Part shown: piece by piece, positions 3,359 to 36,010 of the stretch
Position numbering within the stretch: the stretch's first letter is position 1
Layout of the letters: every line of letters starts with the position of its first letter
Source of the DNA: an uncultured Clostridia bacterium
GTDB lineage: Bacteria > Bacillota > Clostridia > Oscillospirales > Acutalibacteraceae
Assembly (NCBI GenBank): GCA_945863885.1
Contig: CAMAZY010000028.1
Location: forward strand, 1 to 36,010
Direction: 5' to 3'
Length of the DNA: 36,010 nucleotides
Made by a program: the position numbers and the translations under genes
The notes under the pieces: generated by a model
Database searches by the model: none
What the model saw: only the letters and a program-made list of their open reading frames with translations
What the model was told of the DNA's origin: nothing

Positions 3359-3387
3359 TTGACTTGCGAAAACGCAAGTGATATTAT
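3359..3387 (+). promoter_or_regulatory. Early rightward promoter (PR-like)
   Basis: TTGACT (3359-3364) and TATTAT (3382-3387) are spaced 17 bp. The 18-bp operator at 3362-3379 fills the spacer and overlaps the -35, so repressor binding would exclude RNA polymerase. A start near 3394 precedes AAGGAGG and the Cro-like ATG at 3412. Confidence 0.8.
3362..3379. promoter_or_regulatory. Operator O1: perfect 7-4-7 palindrome
   Basis: ACTTGCG-AAAA-CGCAAGT is a perfect inverted repeat lying between the -35 and -10 of the early promoter. The same palindrome recurs at 3618-3635 with a TTTT spacer, which is the same site read on the other strand. Half-sites CGCAAG also occur at 3303-3308 and 3395-3400. 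It is the obvious binding site for the repressor and/or the Cro-like protein. Confidence 0.8.
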
Positions 3388-3411: not shown

Positions 3412-3618
3412 ATGTACGATTACTCAAAATTGCTCGGCATAATGAAAGAACAGAACATCACGCAAGAAACGCTTGCAAAGTCAATCGGCGTGAGCGAAAC
3501 GACTTTGAATAAGAAGCTGAACAACAATTCGCAGTTCAAGCAAGATGAAATGATCGCGATTCTGAATATCCTCGGAATCAATATCAGCTGCATTAGTTCT
3601 ATTTTTTTTAACCACTAA
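3412..3618 (+). CDS. Cro-like small XRE helix-turn-helix protein
   Basis: The 68-residue protein is little more than one helix-turn-helix domain: ILGIMKEQNITQETLAKS, then IGVSETTLNKKLNN, then FKQDEMIAILNILGI. An ideal AAGGAGG precedes the ATG. It is divergent from the repressor and is the first gene of the early operon, the standard position of Cro. Its stop codon overlaps the second operator palindrome. By analogy it would compete with the repressor to favour lytic growth; that role is inferred from position and size. Confidence 0.85.
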   Translation: MYDYSKLLGIMKEQNITQETLAKSIGVSETTLNKKLNNNSQFKQDEMIAILNILGINISCISSIFFNH

Positions 3619-3635
3619 CTTGCGTTTTCGCAAGT
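3618..3635. promoter_or_regulatory. Operator O2: second copy of the switch palindrome
   Basis: ACTTGCG-TTTT-CGCAAGT is the reverse complement of O1 and starts on the last base of the Cro-like stop codon. It is 256 bp from O1, a distance that allows DNA looping between repressor dimers or a roadblock after the first early gene. The imperfect hairpin CGCTCA/TGAGCG (3645-3660) follows. Confidence 0.7.
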
Positions 3636-5474: not shown

Positions 5475-5489
5475 GGAGGATAAAAACAA

Positions 5490-5906
5490 ATGAAGAAGTG
5501 CAAAAAGCATGAAAATGAAATGGCAAAGCTTTCCGAAAGCAACAACCGCCTGAGCCGTCAGGTTGAGCATCTGACACAGTTGCTTGCGTCGTCTGAGGAT
5601 TGTAAACGGTGGGCATATGACGAGCTTTTAAAGGCGAATCAGGAGATTATCAAAATCGAGAGGGAACGCCGGGAAAGCGGTTCGATTTATACCGTGTCCA
5701 AGCGTGAGACGGAGCTTGAAAGACAACTCGAATCCGAGCGCATGAGGGCAGACGGACTTACGGAGATGCTTGAAAAGGCAAAAAAAGAGATCGAAAGGCT
5801 GAAACGGCAACGCAGGGAAATGGCGAGAGTTCCGATGAGCCGGGAAAAAGCCGCAGAGATATTCTTCGAGGGAGAAGAACAGAAAGGCGGTGAAAGCGAT
5901 GAATGA
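5490..5906 (+). CDS. Coiled-coil early protein
   Basis: The 138-residue protein is almost entirely charged helix with heptad periodicity (SNNRLSRQVEHLTQLLAS, then ETELERQLESERMRADGLT, then MLEKAKKEIERLKRQRREM). It starts with the lysine-rich MKKCKKHENEM and ends in an acidic tail. GGAGGAT lies before the ATG. No enzymatic motif is visible. It overlaps the next gene by eight bases. Confidence 0.7.
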   Translation: MKKCKKHENEMAKLSESNNRLSRQVEHLTQLLASSEDCKRWAYDELLKANQEIIKIERERRESGSIYTVSKRETELERQLESERMRADGLTEMLEKAKKEIERLKRQRREMARVPMSREKAAEIFFEGEEQKGGESDE

Positions 5907-12996: not shown

Positions 12997-13502
12997 AGGA
13001 CAATCTAACAGCGGACGATCTGATAAAGGCGAAGAAAACTTTTGATGAAATCAAGCCTCCGACATTGAAAGAATCGCAGGCGTTTGAACGATATCTTCAA
13101 AAGAGCTTTGAAAGCTGCAAGAACAATTACCGGAAAGAACGCGCACGGCAGCATGATGATACTGTCGCAAGTATACAGGAGATGACGGATAGACTGTTCA
13201 ACGCGTGTGACGAAAATTACATACCGCCGGTAACGATATACACGCAACAAATAGTCGACAGCGTTGAAGACGATATTTATAAAACCGTTATCGGATATGG
13301 CGTTGACGTAGACAGAAACGAGCTGATCAGGGCGCTGACATATGACCGGGAACAGTATAAACAGGGATATCATGCCGGTGTTGTAAGAACAGTGAATCTA
13401 TTGCGTGCGATGATTCAAAAGTTTGAAATGAGCCGGACAATGAAAGATGAACTTGAGTATATATTCAGGGGGATTCTTGATGACGCACGACACAGGAGGT
13501 AA
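12993..13502 (+). CDS. Hypothetical helical phage protein
   Basis: The 169-residue protein is mostly charged helix (LIKAKKTFDEIKPP, RYLQKSFESCKNNYRKERA, DELEYIFRGILDDARHRR). The segment ELIRALTYDREQYKQGYHAG resembles a short element seen at the ends of several Clostridia phage proteins. It is coupled to the gene upstream by ATGA. No catalytic motif is visible. Confidence 0.6.
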   Translation: MKDNLTADDLIKAKKTFDEIKPPTLKESQAFERYLQKSFESCKNNYRKERARQHDDTVASIQEMTDRLFNACDENYIPPVTIYTQQIVDSVEDDIYKTVIGYGVDVDRNELIRALTYDREQYKQGYHAGVVRTVNLLRAMIQKFEMSRTMKDELEYIFRGILDDARHRR

Positions 13503-13509
13503 AAATAAC

Positions 13510-13785
13510 ATGAAAATCTACATAGCCGGTAAGATCACCGGGAACGAGAACTACCGCGAAGAATTCGCAAAGGCGCAGGCAGAATTACAAAAGAACGGTC
13601 ACATCGTACTCAACCCGGCGGTGTTGCCGGGGGGGCTGACGAAAGCCGAGTATATGCGGCTGTGCTTTCAGATGATTGATATCGCCGATCAGGTGGTACT
13701 ACTTCCCGGGTGGCAGGACAGCGAGGGGGCACGGCTGGAAGAACAGTATTGCCGGTATATCGGAAAGGAGGTTGAATATTTATGA
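13510..13785 (+). CDS. DUF4406 nucleoside 2-deoxyribosyltransferase-like protein
   Basis: The start is the ATG at 13510 after ACAGGAGG (91 residues), not the in-frame ATG at 13447 inside the previous gene. The sequence is typical DUF4406: KIYIAGKITGNENYREEF (2-19), then LNPAVLPGGLTKAEYMRLCF, MIDIADQVVLLPGWQDSEGA, and RLEEQYC. The family has the nucleoside 2-deoxyribosyltransferase/MazG-partner fold, with the IAGKITG loop binding the nucleotide. A role in nucleotide salvage or clean-up during phage replication is likely. Confidence 0.85.
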   Translation: MKIYIAGKITGNENYREEFAKAQAELQKNGHIVLNPAVLPGGLTKAEYMRLCFQMIDIADQVVLLPGWQDSEGARLEEQYCRYIGKEVEYL

Positions 13786-13964
13786 GTTTTGCAGACGCAT
13801 TCACGCCGGAAGACCGGGTGACGGTGAGATTTTCAGACTTTCACAACATGATGTATGAAGCCGCAAAAGCTGAGTTGATTGAAGCGGCCGTACACGCTAA
13901 CGTCCCGAACAGATATATTCGGGATATGCTCAGCATGAGAGATGAAAGGAACGATGAAACATGA
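13782..13964 (+). CDS. Small hypothetical phage protein
   Basis: This 60-residue ORF overlaps both neighbours by ATGA, so it is surely in the operon. The sequence MSFADAFTPEDRVTVRFSDF, then HNMMYEAAKAELIEAAVHAN, then IRDMLSMRDE is helical and acidic. Similar short proteins sit in early regions of Clostridia phages. The function is unknown. Confidence 0.65.
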   Translation: MSFADAFTPEDRVTVRFSDFHNMMYEAAKAELIEAAVHANVPNRYIRDMLSMRDERNDET

Positions 13965-14299
13965 TTCATGCACTGAAATGCGCGACGGAATATTTTAAAG
14001 ATGTAATTTCCGGGAAGAAAACTTTTGAAATCAGAATAAATGACAGAACGTACGAGGTCGGAGATCTTCTTGCTTTGAATGAGTACGACATGGAACATGA
14101 GGTATACACCGGAGCAAGCTGTCTTGTTCATATTGATTACATACTCAATAACAGCGATTATTGCAAGGACGGTTTTATTGTCATGAGCATTAAGCCGTGT
14201 GAGGTTCGCAAAAGCGGATCACCGTATGATGAGATAAAAGGTTACAGCGTTCCATTTGCATCGTATGCAAACAAAAAAGAGGAAAGCAGCCGGACTTAA
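13961..14299 (+). CDS. DUF3850 (ASCH/PUA-like) protein
   Basis: The 112-residue protein fits DUF3850, an ASCH/PUA-like RNA- or modified-base-binding fold: HALKCATEYFKDVISGKKTF (3-22), EIRINDRTYEVGDLLALNEY (23-42), then a VHIDYIL strand and DGFIVMSIKP. ASCH domains bind RNA or modified cytidines. The end of this gene (14273-14299) is covered by the antisense small RNA described below. It is the last gene of the 4023-14299 operon, which runs with overlaps throughout. Confidence 0.82.
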   Translation: MIHALKCATEYFKDVISGKKTFEIRINDRTYEVGDLLALNEYDMEHEVYTGASCLVHIDYILNNSDYCKDGFIVMSIKPCEVRKSGSPYDEIKGYSVPFASYANKKEESSRT

Positions 14300-14345
14300 A
14301 TGTCCGACTGCTCAAAAATGAAGAAGTGCAAAAAGCACCTGAAGC
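14273..14345 (-). ncRNA. Candidate 73-nt antisense small RNA upstream of the HUH replication gene
   Basis: A perfect-consensus promoter (14352-14380) points leftward. About 33 nt after the predicted start (14345) comes the hairpin AGCAGTCGGAC (14312-14302), ATTTAA loop, GTCCGGCTGCT (14295-14285), followed by TTCCTCTTTTTT (to 14273), a standard terminator. A second small hairpin GTGC-TTTTT-GCAC precedes it (14338-14326). No minus-strand gene exists here. The RNA would pair with the 3' end of the DUF3850 message and with the leader of the HUH gene at 14455, the arrangement of countertranscribed RNAs that limit rolling-circle replication. The RNA is predicted, not observed. Confidence 0.65.
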
Positions 14346-14387
14346 AAATATATTATAGCATTTTGCGCTTCTTTTGTCAAATTTTTT
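14323..14387 (+). terminator. Plus-strand hairpin/terminator in the leader of the HUH gene
   Basis: GAAGTGCAAAA (14323-14333) pairs with TTTTGCGCTTC (14361-14371) over 11 bp with one G-U, then TTTTGTCAAATTTTTT follows. It would end the early operon or act as an attenuator before the HUH gene. Its left arm overlaps the small hairpin GTGC/GCAC (14326-14338), so the two are mutually exclusive, and both lie in the region complementary to the antisense RNA. The remaining gap to 14454 holds only a GCGGC/GCCGC hairpin and the HUH ribosome site. Confidence 0.5.
14352..14380 (-). promoter_or_regulatory. Perfect-consensus sigma-70 promoter, leftward
   Basis: On the minus strand TTGACA (14380-14375) and TATAAT (14357-14352) both match consensus at 6/6 with exactly 17 bp between them. 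It is the strongest promoter seen in the window by eye, yet no leftward gene lies downstream of it; only the terminator hairpin at 14312-14285 does. This implies a highly transcribed small RNA. Confidence 0.8.
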
Positions 14388-14454
14388 CGGGCGGCGGAAA
14401 GCCGCTTAAAGAGTCCATAAACTATGATAACTTTAGGACACGAAGGAGCGAAAA

Positions 14455-15180
14455 ATGGCATACATAGAAAGGCGGGTCTATGCCGGGAAAACCGTTGAGG
14501 TCAAACGGTACCACACGCGAAATCAGAAAAGCAAGGGTCAGCCGAGAATCAGAAAAGAGCCGACGACCGAAGAACGCAAAGAAGCTAACCTGCGGCAGTG
14601 CGAAGAAAAGCTTCGGCAGAAGCTCAACGAGAACTTCAGCGAAAACGACCTGCTTGTCACGTTGAGTTACAGAAAAGAAAACGGAAACAAAACCCGGACA
14701 GTCGAACAGATGAGAGAGGACAAGCGTCTGTTTTTACGGAAGCTTCGAAAATGCTACCGCGATGCGGGCAAGGAATTGAAATTCGCCTATGTGCCGGAGA
14801 TCGGACCGTTAGGGTCGCGGCATCATCATATTGTACTAAGCGGAATTGACCCGAAGATTATAAAAGACTGCTGGCCGTTCGGATTTGTCGATTTCAAGTA
14901 TCTTGAAAAAAGCGGCAATTACAAGAAAATCGCAAGCTATTTCATCAAATACAGCGAAAAGACGTTCCGTACCGTCGGGCGCCTTGCCGGTCAGCGGTAC
15001 TCGTGTTCACGAAACCTTCGCGAGCCAAAAGTCAAAAAAACCGTTGTGTCCAAAGCTGACACGTTTGCAAAAAACGTCAGAGTGCCGAAAGGATATTATC
15101 TTGACAGCGAAAGCGAACGCTTCGGCGTGGATCTGTACGGGAACGCATTTCACAGCTATATTCTTGTCAGATTGGAGTGA
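14455..15180 (+). CDS. HUH endonuclease, rolling-circle replication initiator-like
   Basis: The 241-residue protein contains the HUH metal-binding motif RHHHIVLSG (122-130) and a downstream helix with candidate nucleophile tyrosines Y162 and Y166 (KKIASYFIKYSEKT, 157-170), the order seen in Rep proteins of rolling-circle plasmids and ssDNA phages. DLLVTLSYRK (65-74) matches the first conserved Rep strand. RYSCSRNLREPKV is shared, as I recall, by the rolling-circle replication-associated family. ACGAAGGAGCG precedes the ATG. It is probably the replication initiator, nicking the prophage origin. The origin itself is not recognised. Confidence 0.82.
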   Translation: MAYIERRVYAGKTVEVKRYHTRNQKSKGQPRIRKEPTTEERKEANLRQCEEKLRQKLNENFSENDLLVTLSYRKENGNKTRTVEQMREDKRLFLRKLRKCYRDAGKELKFAYVPEIGPLGSRHHHIVLSGIDPKIIKDCWPFGFVDFKYLEKSGNYKKIASYFIKYSEKTFRTVGRLAGQRYSCSRNLREPKVKKTVVSKADTFAKNVRVPKGYYLDSESERFGVDLYGNAFHSYILVRLE

Positions 15181-15187
15181 AAAAAAC

Positions 15188-15703
15188 ATGGAAATTACGA
15201 TCAAAAATGAAGAATTGAGCGAAGACGAACTCAAACGGAGGTTCGAATTTTTAAAGCGCGCCGGGTATAACGGAAAATCGTTGCCGGAAGACTTTGAAGC
15301 AGACAGCGTTGATCTCGACTACGTTGAAAAGGTCAAGAGGGTTTACAGCAATTTCAGATTGCAGATTAAAAGTGAAGAGGAATCGAAGCACATCATAGAC
15401 CGATATTTCAACACATACAAGACCGACAAGGCAGTCTATCTTCTGAGGTTGGAAAGCGCAAAAGCCGTTCTTGAAACGAGGAAAAAGACAGGTCAGCTTA
15501 CAAGGCGGATGAGTACGTTCGATTTTGATACATACAAAGAAGCCGAAAACCTGATTTATCAGCTGCTTGAAGTAACGCTTGACAGACCGACAGCGGACAG
15601 CATGAAGCCGTTTCTTGAATATCTGAAAACAGGGTGCAAACCGCCAAAGGAGGTGACGACAGATGATCAACACGATAACGCTGATGGGGAGGCTTGTGCG
15701 TGA
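15188..15703 (+). CDS. Hypothetical protein between HUH and SSB genes
   Basis: I start at the ATG at 15188, seven nt after the HUH stop, with GGAGTGA before it (171 residues). A longer frame from 14885 only overlaps the HUH gene. It is a charged, helical protein (ELKRRFEFLKRAGYNG, YVEKVKRVYSNFRLQI, AVYLLRLESAKAVLETRKK). Its end overlaps the ssb start by 41 bases. Position suggests a replication accessory factor; no family is recognised. Confidence 0.65.
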   Translation: MEITIKNEELSEDELKRRFEFLKRAGYNGKSLPEDFEADSVDLDYVEKVKRVYSNFRLQIKSEEESKHIIDRYFNTYKTDKAVYLLRLESAKAVLETRKKTGQLTRRMSTFDFDTYKEAENLIYQLLEVTLDRPTADSMKPFLEYLKTGCKPPKEVTTDDQHDNADGEACA

Positions 15704-16103
15704 CCCGGAACTGAGGACAACGCAAAGCGGGAAAGAAGTTGCATCTTTCACCGTTGCCGTGCAGAGAAGCCGAAGCAAAAACGGAGAGACAGACTTTATT
15801 CCGATTGTTGTATGGGAGAAGACCGCAAAATTCGTTTGTGATTACTTCCGCAAAGGATCAATGATCGCCGTGACGGGTTCTTTGCAGACACGAAACTACA
15901 CAGACGGTGACGGATATAAAAGAACCGCTTTTGAAGTGATTGCCAACGAGGTTTCATTCTGCGGTTCGAAAGAAAAGGCAGATGAAAGCGCACGGGAAAT
16001 CCAAAAGGATAGAGAGTTTATTGCCGACATGAACAATTCAGTTCATGAGGGCTTTTCACAGAATGCAGATTTTGAATATATCGAAGAATATGACGAATTT
16101 TAA
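15663..16103 (+). CDS. ssb: Single-stranded DNA-binding protein
   Basis: The 146-residue product is a clear SSB with one OB fold: MINTITLMGRLVRDPELRTT (1-20), then SFTVAVQR, FIPIVVWEKTAKFVCDYF and GSMIAVTGSLQTRNYTDGDG. The C-terminal tail is acidic and ends YIEEYDEF, a degenerate form of the DDDIPF peptide used to recruit partner proteins. GGAGGTGACGAC precedes the ATG. It coats ssDNA made during replication or recombination, consistent with a rolling-circle initiator next door. Confidence 0.96.
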   Translation: MINTITLMGRLVRDPELRTTQSGKEVASFTVAVQRSRSKNGETDFIPIVVWEKTAKFVCDYFRKGSMIAVTGSLQTRNYTDGDGYKRTAFEVIANEVSFCGSKEKADESAREIQKDREFIADMNNSVHEGFSQNADFEYIEEYDEF

Positions 16104-33945: not shown

Positions 33946-36010
33946 ATGACAGTTCAACTGACGGTTCAAGACAAGGTGATCACGCATGAGGGCAAGCGGA
34001 CGCTCGACATTCATCTTGTCGGAGACAACGACGGATATGGATTTCGCTTTTTACAAGACGAAAAACACAACGCAGACTTTGTTCTCTTCCGCAAGGACGG
34101 CAAGGACTATCCGCCGGTCGCGATACAAGACGGGCAGGACGTGCCGGTGCCGAGGGCAGTTTTAAAAGAAGGCGAATTCACGTTCGGCATCTATTCGGAC
34201 GGATACGCCACCGAGCCGATGACGGCAAGGGTTACAGGCTCGATCCTCAACGAAAGCGGCATTCCGACGGAAGAGCCGAAGAAAACCCAGGTCGAACAGC
34301 TGATTGCGCTTGCGAACGGGATTTTCTCTGTCGAAAAAGCCGAGATTGACGAAAGCGGCGAACTGCTTGTGACCTTGCGGTCGGGGAACGAAGAAAAGAC
34401 ACTCCATGCGGGCACGGCACGCGGCAACGGCATTTTGAAGATGGAACAGACCACCGAAAGCGACAAGGACGGCGGCACGAATGAGGTCACCATCACGTTC
34501 ACGAACGGGGAAACGACCGTCTTGCGCTTTTTAAACGGCAGGCGCGGAAACGGCATCGAAAGGATGGAGCAGACCGAAACGAGCGCAGACAGCGGCGCGG
34601 TCAACCGCTTCACGTTCACAACCTCTGACGGAGAAGAAGCTGTTTTTGAAGTCCGAAACGGCGCGAAGGGCGACAAAGGCGACGCCGCCACAATCAAATC
34701 CGTGACCGCCGTCACCGTTGAACCCGAAAGCATGGCGACCGCCACCAACGAGGGCACGACCTCTGACGCTGAACTTGTGTTCAAAATCCCGAGAGGCGAA
34801 AAGGGAGACAAGGGCGACAAGGGTGATAAGGGAGACAAGGGCGATTCGTTCACCTACTCTGACTTCACCGCTGAACAGCTTGCAAATCTGAAAGGCGAGA
34901 AAGGCGACAAAGGCGACAAGGGCGACAAAGGTGACAAAGGCGACAAAGGCGACACCGGCGATACGCCGCAGCTATCCGTCGGAACGGTCACGACCGTAGC
35001 CCCTACCGAATCCGCTTCGGCAACTATGACAGGAACAAAAGAAGAACCTGTATTGAATCTGAGTATTCCGAGGGGTAGCGTTACGGACGGAGATGTTGAC
35101 CCTGATAAAACAACGTGGATGAGACGGGTGTTTTACAATATCTTTGACAAGAACACGATACTTGACGGGTATGGTTTAAACATTTCAGGAAATATCACTG
35201 GCGACGGAACAATTGATAGTTTTGTCAGTGATTATATTTCCGTTTTTCCATTAACTGCATATAGAATGTCAACTGCATGTTATGTAAGATTTTTTGACTA
35301 CAACAAGAATTGTGTTGGTAACATCAATAATCTAAATAATACGATAATAACCATTCCGAGTAATGTGCATTTCATTCGTATTACAAATGCAAAGAGTAAG
35401 GTTGATATTAACAATTTTCAAGTGCATGAATATTTCAAAGGTAATTCATTTCCTTATAGTGAGTATAAGACCGATTATATTATTGTTCCTTCCGATGACG
35501 AATACTCGGAGATGATTCGGGATATTTCATCAAAAAATACTTGGGATTTAATTGAAGAAGCAAACCGCTTCGTTGACTACAACACGGGGGTGCTTTCTGA
35601 TGAGCAAGTCAAAGCAGGATATCTCTCGATTCTTCAGACGGCGGGATATGCCAACGTAAGAAGCCAGCTTGACTGGGAGTATATCAGCGGAGCAGGTTCA
35701 ACTAAGTGGTTTTCACCTAAATCAGATGCTGTTATACCGAAAAAAATCGTATTTTCATTTTCGAGTGAAGATTATCCTGCCAATTACAAAAATAAGCAAA
35801 ACAATGAAAAATACGAAGGTGTTACTGATTTAATTTTTGATTATTCCGCAAAGAAATCAACATATTTAGGCGAAGGCGTTTCGGGCATATCTGATTCGAA
35901 CGGCTGCGGACTCAAAGAAATCAGCAAGTCTGTATGTTCTATTGTTTTTCCGAAGAATATAGGAATTATAGGTGTCTGGTCGTATGGCAATATGCCAAAT
36001 CTCGAAAAAA
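33946..36010 (+). CDS. Collagen-like tail fibre, 3' end outside the window
   Basis: An open frame of 688 codons runs from the ATG at 33946 (AGAGGTGAGAAC before it) to the window edge. Residues 1-120 form a BppU-like N-terminal domain that should anchor to the baseplate (LTVQDKVITHEGKRTLDIHL). Residues about 158-240 hold two to three copies of a 37-residue beta unit (GNGILKMEQT, GNGIERMEQT). Collagen-like Gly-Asp-Lys repeats follow at about 237-246, 284-300 and 317-340. From about residue 388 (35110) the DNA becomes AT-rich and the protein resembles receptor-binding tips. The end is missing, so full length is unknown. Confidence 0.88.
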   Translation, partial: MTVQLTVQDKVITHEGKRTLDIHLVGDNDGYGFRFLQDEKHNADFVLFRKDGKDYPPVAIQDGQDVPVPRAVLKEGEFTFGIYSDGYATEPMTARVTGSILNESGIPTEEPKKTQVEQLIALANGIFSVEKAEIDESGELLVTLRSGNEEKTLHAGTARGNGILKMEQTTESDKDGGTNEVTITFTNGETTVLRFLNGRRGNGIERMEQTETSADSGAVNRFTFTTSDGEEAVFEVRNGAKGDKGDAATIKSVTAVTVEPESMATATNEGTTSDAELVFKIPRGEKGDKGDKGDKGDKGDSFTYSDFTAEQLANLKGEKGDKGDKGDKGDKGDKGDTGDTPQLSVGTVTTVAPTESASATMTGTKEEPVLNLSIPRGSVTDGDVDPDKTTWMRRVFYNIFDKNTILDGYGLNISGNITGDGTIDSFVSDYISVFPLTAYRMSTACYVRFFDYNKNCVGNINNLNNTIITIPSNVHFIRITNAKSKVDINNFQVHEYFKGNSFPYSEYKTDYIIVPSDDEYSEMIRDISSKNTWDLIEEANRFVDYNTGVLSDEQVKAGYLSILQTAGYANVRSQLDWEYISGAGSTKWFSPKSDAVIPKKIVFSFSSEDYPANYKNKQNNEKYEGVTDLIFDYSAKKSTYLGEGVSGISDSNGCGLKEISKSVCSIVFPKNIGIIGVWSYGNMPNLEK

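Follow-up and report, generated by a model that had tools for sequence, protein, structure and literature searches.

The systems closest to the one considered here, a predicted antisense RNA facing the leader of an HUH rolling-circle initiator gene in a contig of an uncultured Clostridia bacterium (CAMAZY010000028.1), are described from plasmids. As set out in the part of PMC5703833 drawn on here, RNAI of the staphylococcal RepA_N plasmid pSK41 is an antisense RNA of ~83 nucleotides (nt) with two stem-loops; the stretch of the rep leader to which it is complementary lies ~100 nt ahead of the start region, and its binding is proposed to induce a stem-loop hiding the ribosome-binding site. In the same pages, pT181 RNAI appears as an antisense RNA of 87 nt that targets a rolling-circle initiator's leader, with competing pre-emptor and start-site hairpins, and phages are described as often propagating in bursts. 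The Rep_1 plasmids pC194 and pUB110 have HUH initiators, predicted anti-rep RNAs and an origin core with CTTGATA, according to excerpts of PMC5703833 and PMC7072734. Among tailed temperate phages, lambda makes the short antisense RNA OOP, once thought to be a replication primer, which acts on cII (PMC12197685, in part); the accessible portion of that review covers OOP, sar, sas, aQ and c4, and describes none of them as acting on a rolling-circle initiator. Lambda replicative inhibition is treated in PMC3349717, with mention of an antisense RNA. A survey of titles and abstracts, whose coverage excluded most subscription journals and bioRxiv preprints, named no antisense RNA against a tailed-phage rolling-circle initiator.

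The stretch analysed, hereafter the window, is the entire 36-kb contig (36,010 nt) from a 2.6-Mb genome. Its gene content comprises an integrase, a repressor-like regulator, a terminase, a major head protein, a tail sheath, a tape measure and a baseplate, and is most naturally read as that of a temperate contractile-tailed prophage. Our principal proposal, to which we assign a probability of about 0.64, is that the predicted RNA acts as a translational switch of the pSK41 kind on the HUH initiator of this tailed phage. The mechanism most resembles that of pSK41 RNAI, with which the window is predicted to share the size of the antisense RNA, its two stem-loops, its position in the leader and a structure that hides the ribosome-binding site. 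Membership of that system is not claimed, because the initiator of pSK41, as described in the cited excerpt, is a RepA_N protein encoded by a plasmid, whereas here it is an HUH protein from a tailed phage, and in relatives the leader includes a nick-like motif. The following features of the window carry the proposal.

14455-15180, plus strand: HUH rolling-circle replication initiator gene (241 amino acids), the proposed antisense target
14380-14352, minus strand: antisense promoter, with a -35 box TTGACA at 14380-14375, a 17-nt spacer, a -10 box TATAAT at 14357-14352 and a TG preceding the -10 box
14313-14284, minus strand: antisense terminator hairpin with 12 base pairs (7 GC) and, beyond it, U-rich sequence as far as ~14272
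~14345 to ~14275, minus strand: predicted antisense RNA of ~70 nt with two stem-loops, its ends deduced from the promoter and the terminator

The antisense promoter scores 12/12 against the sigma-70 consensus. A scan of 13000-16000 returned 3 promoter-like sites where shuffled sequences give 3.8, so that their number is ordinary, and a perfect score was reached by the antisense promoter only. The terminator hairpin is followed by TCCTCTTTTT, and the minus strand from 14350 to 14260 folds at -29 kcal/mol (z = -5.86), a value that none of 200 shuffles equalled. The leftward RNA serves no evident gene: both neighbours point rightward, and the minus-strand open reading frame (ORF) 13841-14131, opposite the DUF3850/ASCH gene, is merely a mechanical frame. 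The prediction thus corresponds to an antisense RNA of ~80 nt placed ~100 nt upstream of the start region, the HUH AUG being at 14455. In Rfam, the window between 13500 and 15300 gave three weak matches, all far under the gathering score, and 13 related loci gave none.

The protein facing this RNA is, from its predicted catalytic residues, a rolling-circle initiator of the PF23343/phrog_3584 kind. REP_ORF2-G2P (PF23343) is its sole Pfam match (3.5e-15); the scan therefore returned no RepA_N domain, nor was Rep_1 (PF01446) among the matches at 0.001. In PHROG it matches phrog_3584, replication initiation protein (3e-50). The histidine pair H123 and H125 and the downstream tyrosine Y162 are unchanged across 15 aligned HUH sequences. 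The protein has one match in the 2.6-Mb genome and two distant matches among the PLSDB plasmids.

Relatives of the HUH gene were gathered from IMG/VR, GTDB contigs and genomes, in a sample that is not exhaustive (one set consists of the best 80 of 85 loci, and two others supplied loci for only some of their matches). The sample held 174 loci, 167 of them hidden Markov model matches and 7 recognised from DNA only; 1 locus without a start and 4 with <250 nt upstream were excluded, and the usable set came to 162 loci in 106 clusters, grouped by upstream sequence. A promoter was counted if it pointed leftward, scored >=10/12 and lay <=250 nt upstream of the HUH start, the expectation being taken from dinucleotide shuffles. 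By this measure, 45 of the 106 clusters carry a leftward promoter against 5.4 expected; at >=11/12 the count is 23 against 0.2, and two clusters reach 12/12. Rightward promoters of >=10/12 occur in 2 clusters (3.8 expected), and six other windows in the same loci contain 3-12 leftward promoters among 93-105, the highest number falling 250-500 nt upstream.

The promoter is accompanied by a terminator. Leftward terminators of <= -9 kcal/mol within 150 nt were found by script in 39 of the 45 promoter-bearing clusters, or in 40 once the window's own is included, at ~50-116 nt downstream of the promoter. The corresponding controls were 11/45 for shuffled sequence, 9/45 for the opposite strand (counted in the stretch left of the RNA start, outside the leader proper) and 28/61 for clusters without a 10/12 promoter. 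A second set was selected by promoter and terminator only: 19 of 64 examined loci combine a promoter of 8-9/12 with a strong terminator, under a weaker promoter rule without a computed chance rate, and two of them, L102 and L221, have a terminator in common and are apparently near-duplicates. Eighteen of the 19 belong to the 106 clusters, so that ~58 of the 106 have the arrangement by either rule. Beyond the intergenic DNA itself, similarity searches returned only matches of 22-35 nt, one in its own contig and five in five of 146 other genomes; what recurs is therefore the architecture and not the sequence.

Related genes also occur in named phages. Latilactobacillus phage TMW 1.46 P2 (L223) has a leftward TTGACT-18-TATAAT promoter (11/12) and a CTTGTA-type motif near the start of its HUH-family gene. 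Butyrivibrio phage Arawn carries a related gene with an origin motif of 21/21 and a leftward promoter of 9/12 only. None of three small-genome relatives (an inovirus, a microvirus and an unannotated 4.6-kb record) has a leftward promoter of >=9/12, nor does the 64-kb record L222, whose start codon is uncertain. As separate observations, L176 and L221 (Dulem virus 34, MT835543) show a leftward promoter of 9/12 and a strong GC hairpin upstream of the HUH-family gene, where complementary CCGTCCG/CGGACGG elements were also seen by eye, and the genome G422 contains six HUH-family matches.

The original prediction, made from the letters of the window, had named the consensus promoter TTGACA-17-TATAAT, a terminator hairpin with a U-run and the absence of any leftward gene, and each of these stood up. 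It had also proposed that the promoter and hairpin should be kept where the HUH gene is kept, a check that the arrangement survived in the relatives; the arrangement, which it had placed in a myophage, recurs in many relatives.

Complementarity within the leader suggests how such an RNA could act. Three elements on the plus strand are involved.

14319-14337, plus strand: element 1, inside the antisense target; when it pairs with element 2, the HUH start site is more open
14358-14379, plus strand: element 2, opposite the promoter spacer and most of the -35 box; can pair either with element 1 or with the start region of HUH
14436-14458, plus strand: element 3, comprising the HUH Shine-Dalgarno sequence (AAGGAG, 14443-14448), the spacer and the AUG; predicted to be hidden by element 2 when element 1 is occupied by the RNA

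In the window the two competing duplexes are nearly equal in energy, at -21.4 kcal/mol for elements 1 and 2 and -21.9 kcal/mol for element 2 and the start region. When the stretch covered by the antisense RNA is held unpaired, the Shine-Dalgarno sequence loses nearly all of its computed accessibility (0.63 to 0.01) and the AUG most of its own (0.37 to 0.07).

The same pairings were examined in 40 of the 45 promoter-bearing clusters; L117, L139, L145, L160 and L164 were omitted for want of a good terminator, and L138 was retained despite a doubtful one. Element 2 was set by the promoter (17 nt opposite the spacer) and not by pairing. It pairs with the first ~30 nt of the antisense target at p<0.05 in 19-21 of the 40 loci, depending on the test, and with the next 30 nt in 3. 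With the HUH start, the count is 13/40 for -5 to +28 and 9/40 for -35 to -6, as against 0/40 and 2/40 for the control stretches +28 to +60 and +60 to +93, and 2/40 for that from the -35 box to the Shine-Dalgarno sequence. By permutation over the 40 loci, element 2 pairs with its own element 1 at a mean of -11.0 kcal/mol versus -6.7 kcal/mol with those of other loci, and with its own start region at -10.9 versus -7.7 kcal/mol (p 2e-4 in both cases, the floor of 5000 draws); two downstream control windows gave p 0.49 and 0.27. Under the same element definitions, the 19 loci of the second set returned p 0.0002 for element 1 and 0.007 for the start region, with control windows at 0.15 and 0.99. 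Within one cluster of 14 sequences, whose variation is too slight for covariation to decide the matter, a change in a tyrosine codon of L063 is matched in element 2, and other changes become G-U pairs (by eye).

The contribution of the spacer can also be seen from the computed state of the start region. With a shuffled spacer this region is more accessible in the bound state, accessibility being lower with the real spacer in 19 of the 40 loci and higher in 7 (p 0.004); the free state is unaffected (p 0.90). Accessibility drops by more than 0.05 on binding in 15 of the 40 loci and rises in 3.

Several results weigh against the switch. Some 48 of the 106 clusters lack the arrangement under either rule. 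Taken singly, loci reach p<0.05 in 19/40 cases for elements 1 and 2 and in 16/40 for element 2 and the start, and in both for 11, the window among them. The start-region window of the first set was settled after several had been tried, and the second set alone is a clean repeat. Mononucleotide shuffling also raises some control windows, to 3, 3, 6, 7 and 3 of 40 (Fisher 0.16, 0.004, 0.001, 3e-5 and 0.016), the highest (7/40) lying 150-200 nt upstream of the RNA start; these Fisher values are inflated, and the permutation result is therefore the one to trust. The ensemble effect is small, with a mean drop on binding of 0.038 as against 0.012 with a shuffled spacer (p 0.03). An RNA-induced leader structure that hides the ribosome-binding site was obtained by computation, and the narrower first test, limited to the Shine-Dalgarno sequence and start codon, was not significant over the 40 loci (14 down, 10 up, p 0.27). 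Finally, RNA binding in the window might also relieve termination at the hairpin formed by elements 1 and 2, with the opposite effect on HUH expression. The window and some relatives show the switch effect clearly; averaged over the loci, it is moderate.

Computation accordingly supplies the promoter, the terminator, the complementarities of the leader and their recurrence in relatives. From these we infer an RNA that is actually produced, represses HUH and so limits rolling-circle replication. In such a mechanism the intergenic region would serve as a replication-control cassette, whose leftward promoter would yield an antisense RNA of ~70 nt, complementary to the HUH mRNA in its leader, this mRNA probably arriving on the rightward early transcript. 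As long as there is little RNA, element 1 would pair with element 2, leaving the Shine-Dalgarno sequence and AUG open and HUH translated. Once the RNA occupies element 1, element 2 would be freed to pair with the HUH start region and translation would be shut. Initiator synthesis would in this way be kept low as phage copies rise, or where a prophage is still making the RNA. As a target, HUH is comparatively supported.

The leader also contains a motif that bears on the competing explanations, and a hairpin beside it.

14413-14441, plus strand: putative nick/origin motif that diverges from the family consensus, has GTCC/GGAC on its flanks and is placed by analogy with L003 and L005
14390-14406, plus strand: hairpin rich in GC, situated after the antisense promoter and before the putative origin motif; in relatives, hairpins whose sequences differ were seen similarly placed, and were not counted as such

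The family motif, CTTGATAAAAGTATTAACTTA, occurs at >=14/21 between the antisense promoter and the HUH start in 27 of the 40 loci. Over all clusters the count is 57/106 versus 10 on the reverse strand; as the consensus was derived from the same loci in which it was counted, the fair comparisons are this reverse-strand count and the fixed spacing. The motif starts at a median of 32 nt from the -35 box in the 27 loci, and within 30-36 nt in 22 of them. The window's best ungapped match is 11/21 and lies slightly left of the placement listed above. Positioned between the RNA promoter and HUH, the motif is a possible rolling-circle nick site. The family consensus opens with CTTGATA, and phiX174 and pC194 are nicked between the G and A of such a sequence. 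Those seven bases also stand in the pC194 origin core as given in the portion of PMC7072734 consulted, and similarity to the wider core is weak. As a separate observation made by eye, a GC-rich hairpin is enclosed by an inverted repeat of AGTCAAG (the complement of the -35 box) and CTTGA of the nick-like motif in L002, L041, L155, L156, L157 and others. It is accordingly possible that promoter and origin overlap, which may explain why the -35 box is mostly TTGACT in relatives.

Were the motif a nick site, displacement would affect the plus strand, and synthesis of the complementary strand could be primed by the leftward RNA as well. The main rival explanation starts from this point: the leftward promoter would be chiefly a single-strand origin, at which RNA polymerase lays down a primer on the displaced plus strand for lagging-strand synthesis. 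Since the nick-like motif is on the plus strand, the leftward RNA would be transcribed from the displaced strand, and its promoter is located immediately 5' of the motif, the usual place of a single-strand origin in most rolling-circle plasmids according to the part of PMC4595007 cited here. The inverted repeat formed by the spacer and the initially transcribed stretch, significant in the 19-21 loci noted above, would likewise suit such an origin. A pure primer, however, needs neither the strong terminator ~50-116 nt downstream that is present in 40/45 clusters nor complementarity between the spacer and the start region of its own locus, and we consider this explanation improbable on its own. 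The two roles could coexist.

Marginally less probable again is repression of HUH without any leader switch, whether by RNase III cleavage of the duplex, by direct pairing with the start region or by colliding transcription. Any RNA from the antisense promoter is fully complementary to the leader, and repression of this simpler kind would account for the recurrence of promoter and terminator as well as for the many loci without significant pairing between the elements. In 6 of the 40 loci, pairing of the RNA itself with the HUH start region also exceeds that of shuffled sequences. What it leaves unexplained is that element 2, which lies outside the RNA, tracks the start region of its own locus (p 2e-4, and 0.007 in the second set). 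The antisense RNAs of pC194 and pUB110 are proposed, in the excerpts cited, to block the start region directly; the family of the window shares with these plasmids an HUH initiator, predicted antisense RNAs and possibly CTTGATA in the origin, and differs in that its protein has no Rep_1 match and its wider origin similarity is weak.

Control of transcription termination in the leader, by attenuation of the pT181 type or by an RNA that relieves a terminator, is very unlikely. The plus strand does form the two mutually exclusive hairpins of the original prediction, 14323-14340 and ~14319-14375, the latter with a T-rich tail; this long hairpin scores -15.5 kcal/mol as a terminator in the rep direction, and pT181 provides the precedent, sharing with the window an antisense RNA to the leader of a rolling-circle initiator and competing hairpins (predicted here). 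The long hairpin is, however, the one formed by elements 1 and 2, and would be broken rather than made by the RNA. In the stretch from the RNA start to HUH, 6 of the 40 loci have a rep-direction terminator of <= -9 kcal/mol against 3.4 expected, the window's hairpin being one of the six, which is no clear enrichment; attenuation is therefore not a general feature, and a pT181-type RNA-induced terminator was rejected. In pT181, as the cited part has it, transcription termination is the main effect and the initiator is a Rep_trans protein. The core of the earlier claim, a countertranscribed RNA facing the HUH leader in the manner of plasmids, is upheld by conservation (for an RNA that remains predicted), and in place of the attenuation or direct start-site block that it had envisaged a leader switch is indicated. 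Between the RNA start and the HUH start, leftward terminator-like hairpins are found in 17/40 loci against 3.0 expected, in keeping with a hairpin directly preceding the antisense promoter; such hairpins would insulate the promoter from leftward read-through.

The RNA of the window has a second match elsewhere in the contig.

5488-5509, plus strand: 22-nt exact repeat of 14316-14337, covering the start codon of ORF 5490-5906 and perfectly complementary to the antisense RNA

This site is a possible extra target in trans: 1000 shuffled RNAs reach <=17 nt, and 2 of 500 random 72-mers of the window have a repeat this long. That the RNA is primarily a trans regulator of ORF 5490, which those two figures would favour, is nevertheless the least probable reading of all, as no comparable match was found among 20 further phage records or regions that carry the arrangement (9-12 nt, with a single case of 17 nt; several records partial). 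The ORF is without a match in PHROG, and 98 genomes gave, apart from the ORF itself, a single marginal hit, too little to judge its conservation by. The stretch 15201-15217, directly after the HUH gene, matches 14312-14328 at 16 of 17 nt and is possibly a weaker second site for the antisense RNA. OOP of lambda, as the accessible part of PMC12197685 describes it, acts on cII and is not described with an initiator leader switch, whereas the RNA of the window is predicted to act on the HUH leader.

The remaining features of the window concern its surroundings. The left neighbour, 13961-14299, is a rightward gene with a Pfam match to DUF3850/ASCH and is separated from the HUH gene by a 155-nt gap. 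A plus-strand frame crosses the HUH AUG of the window without an evident Shine-Dalgarno sequence, and no general counterpart of such a leader peptide was seen by eye in the relatives. Beside the repressor-like gene, 3362-3379 and 3618-3635 form a perfect 18-nt inverted repeat pair flanking a small rightward ORF, and are possible operators. A run of 9-nt repeats at 34657-34970 corresponds to collagen-like Gly-x-x in the frame 33946-36009, as read from the DNA.

The finding would place a known plasmid logic, antisense control of an initiator by a leader switch, in a setting for which the literature surveyed gave no description, the HUH initiator of a tailed phage. A wider extension, which we regard as unlikely in full and put forward tentatively, is that HUH-replicating temperate tailed phages form a broad class with plasmid-like incompatibility RNAs. 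The RNA of a prophage would then silence in trans both its own initiator and those of incoming relatives; the element sequences would diversify into compatibility groups as the three-part switch is kept, and the RNA of the window would have gained the start codon of ORF 5490, an early gene, as a second target. The three-element pairing makes the switch directly testable with a reporter. Plasmids meter their replication by antisense RNAs, and, if the proposal is true, phages would gain from the same device a plasmid-style control of copy number or a guard of lysogeny, and possibly an RNA-based immunity between related prophages.

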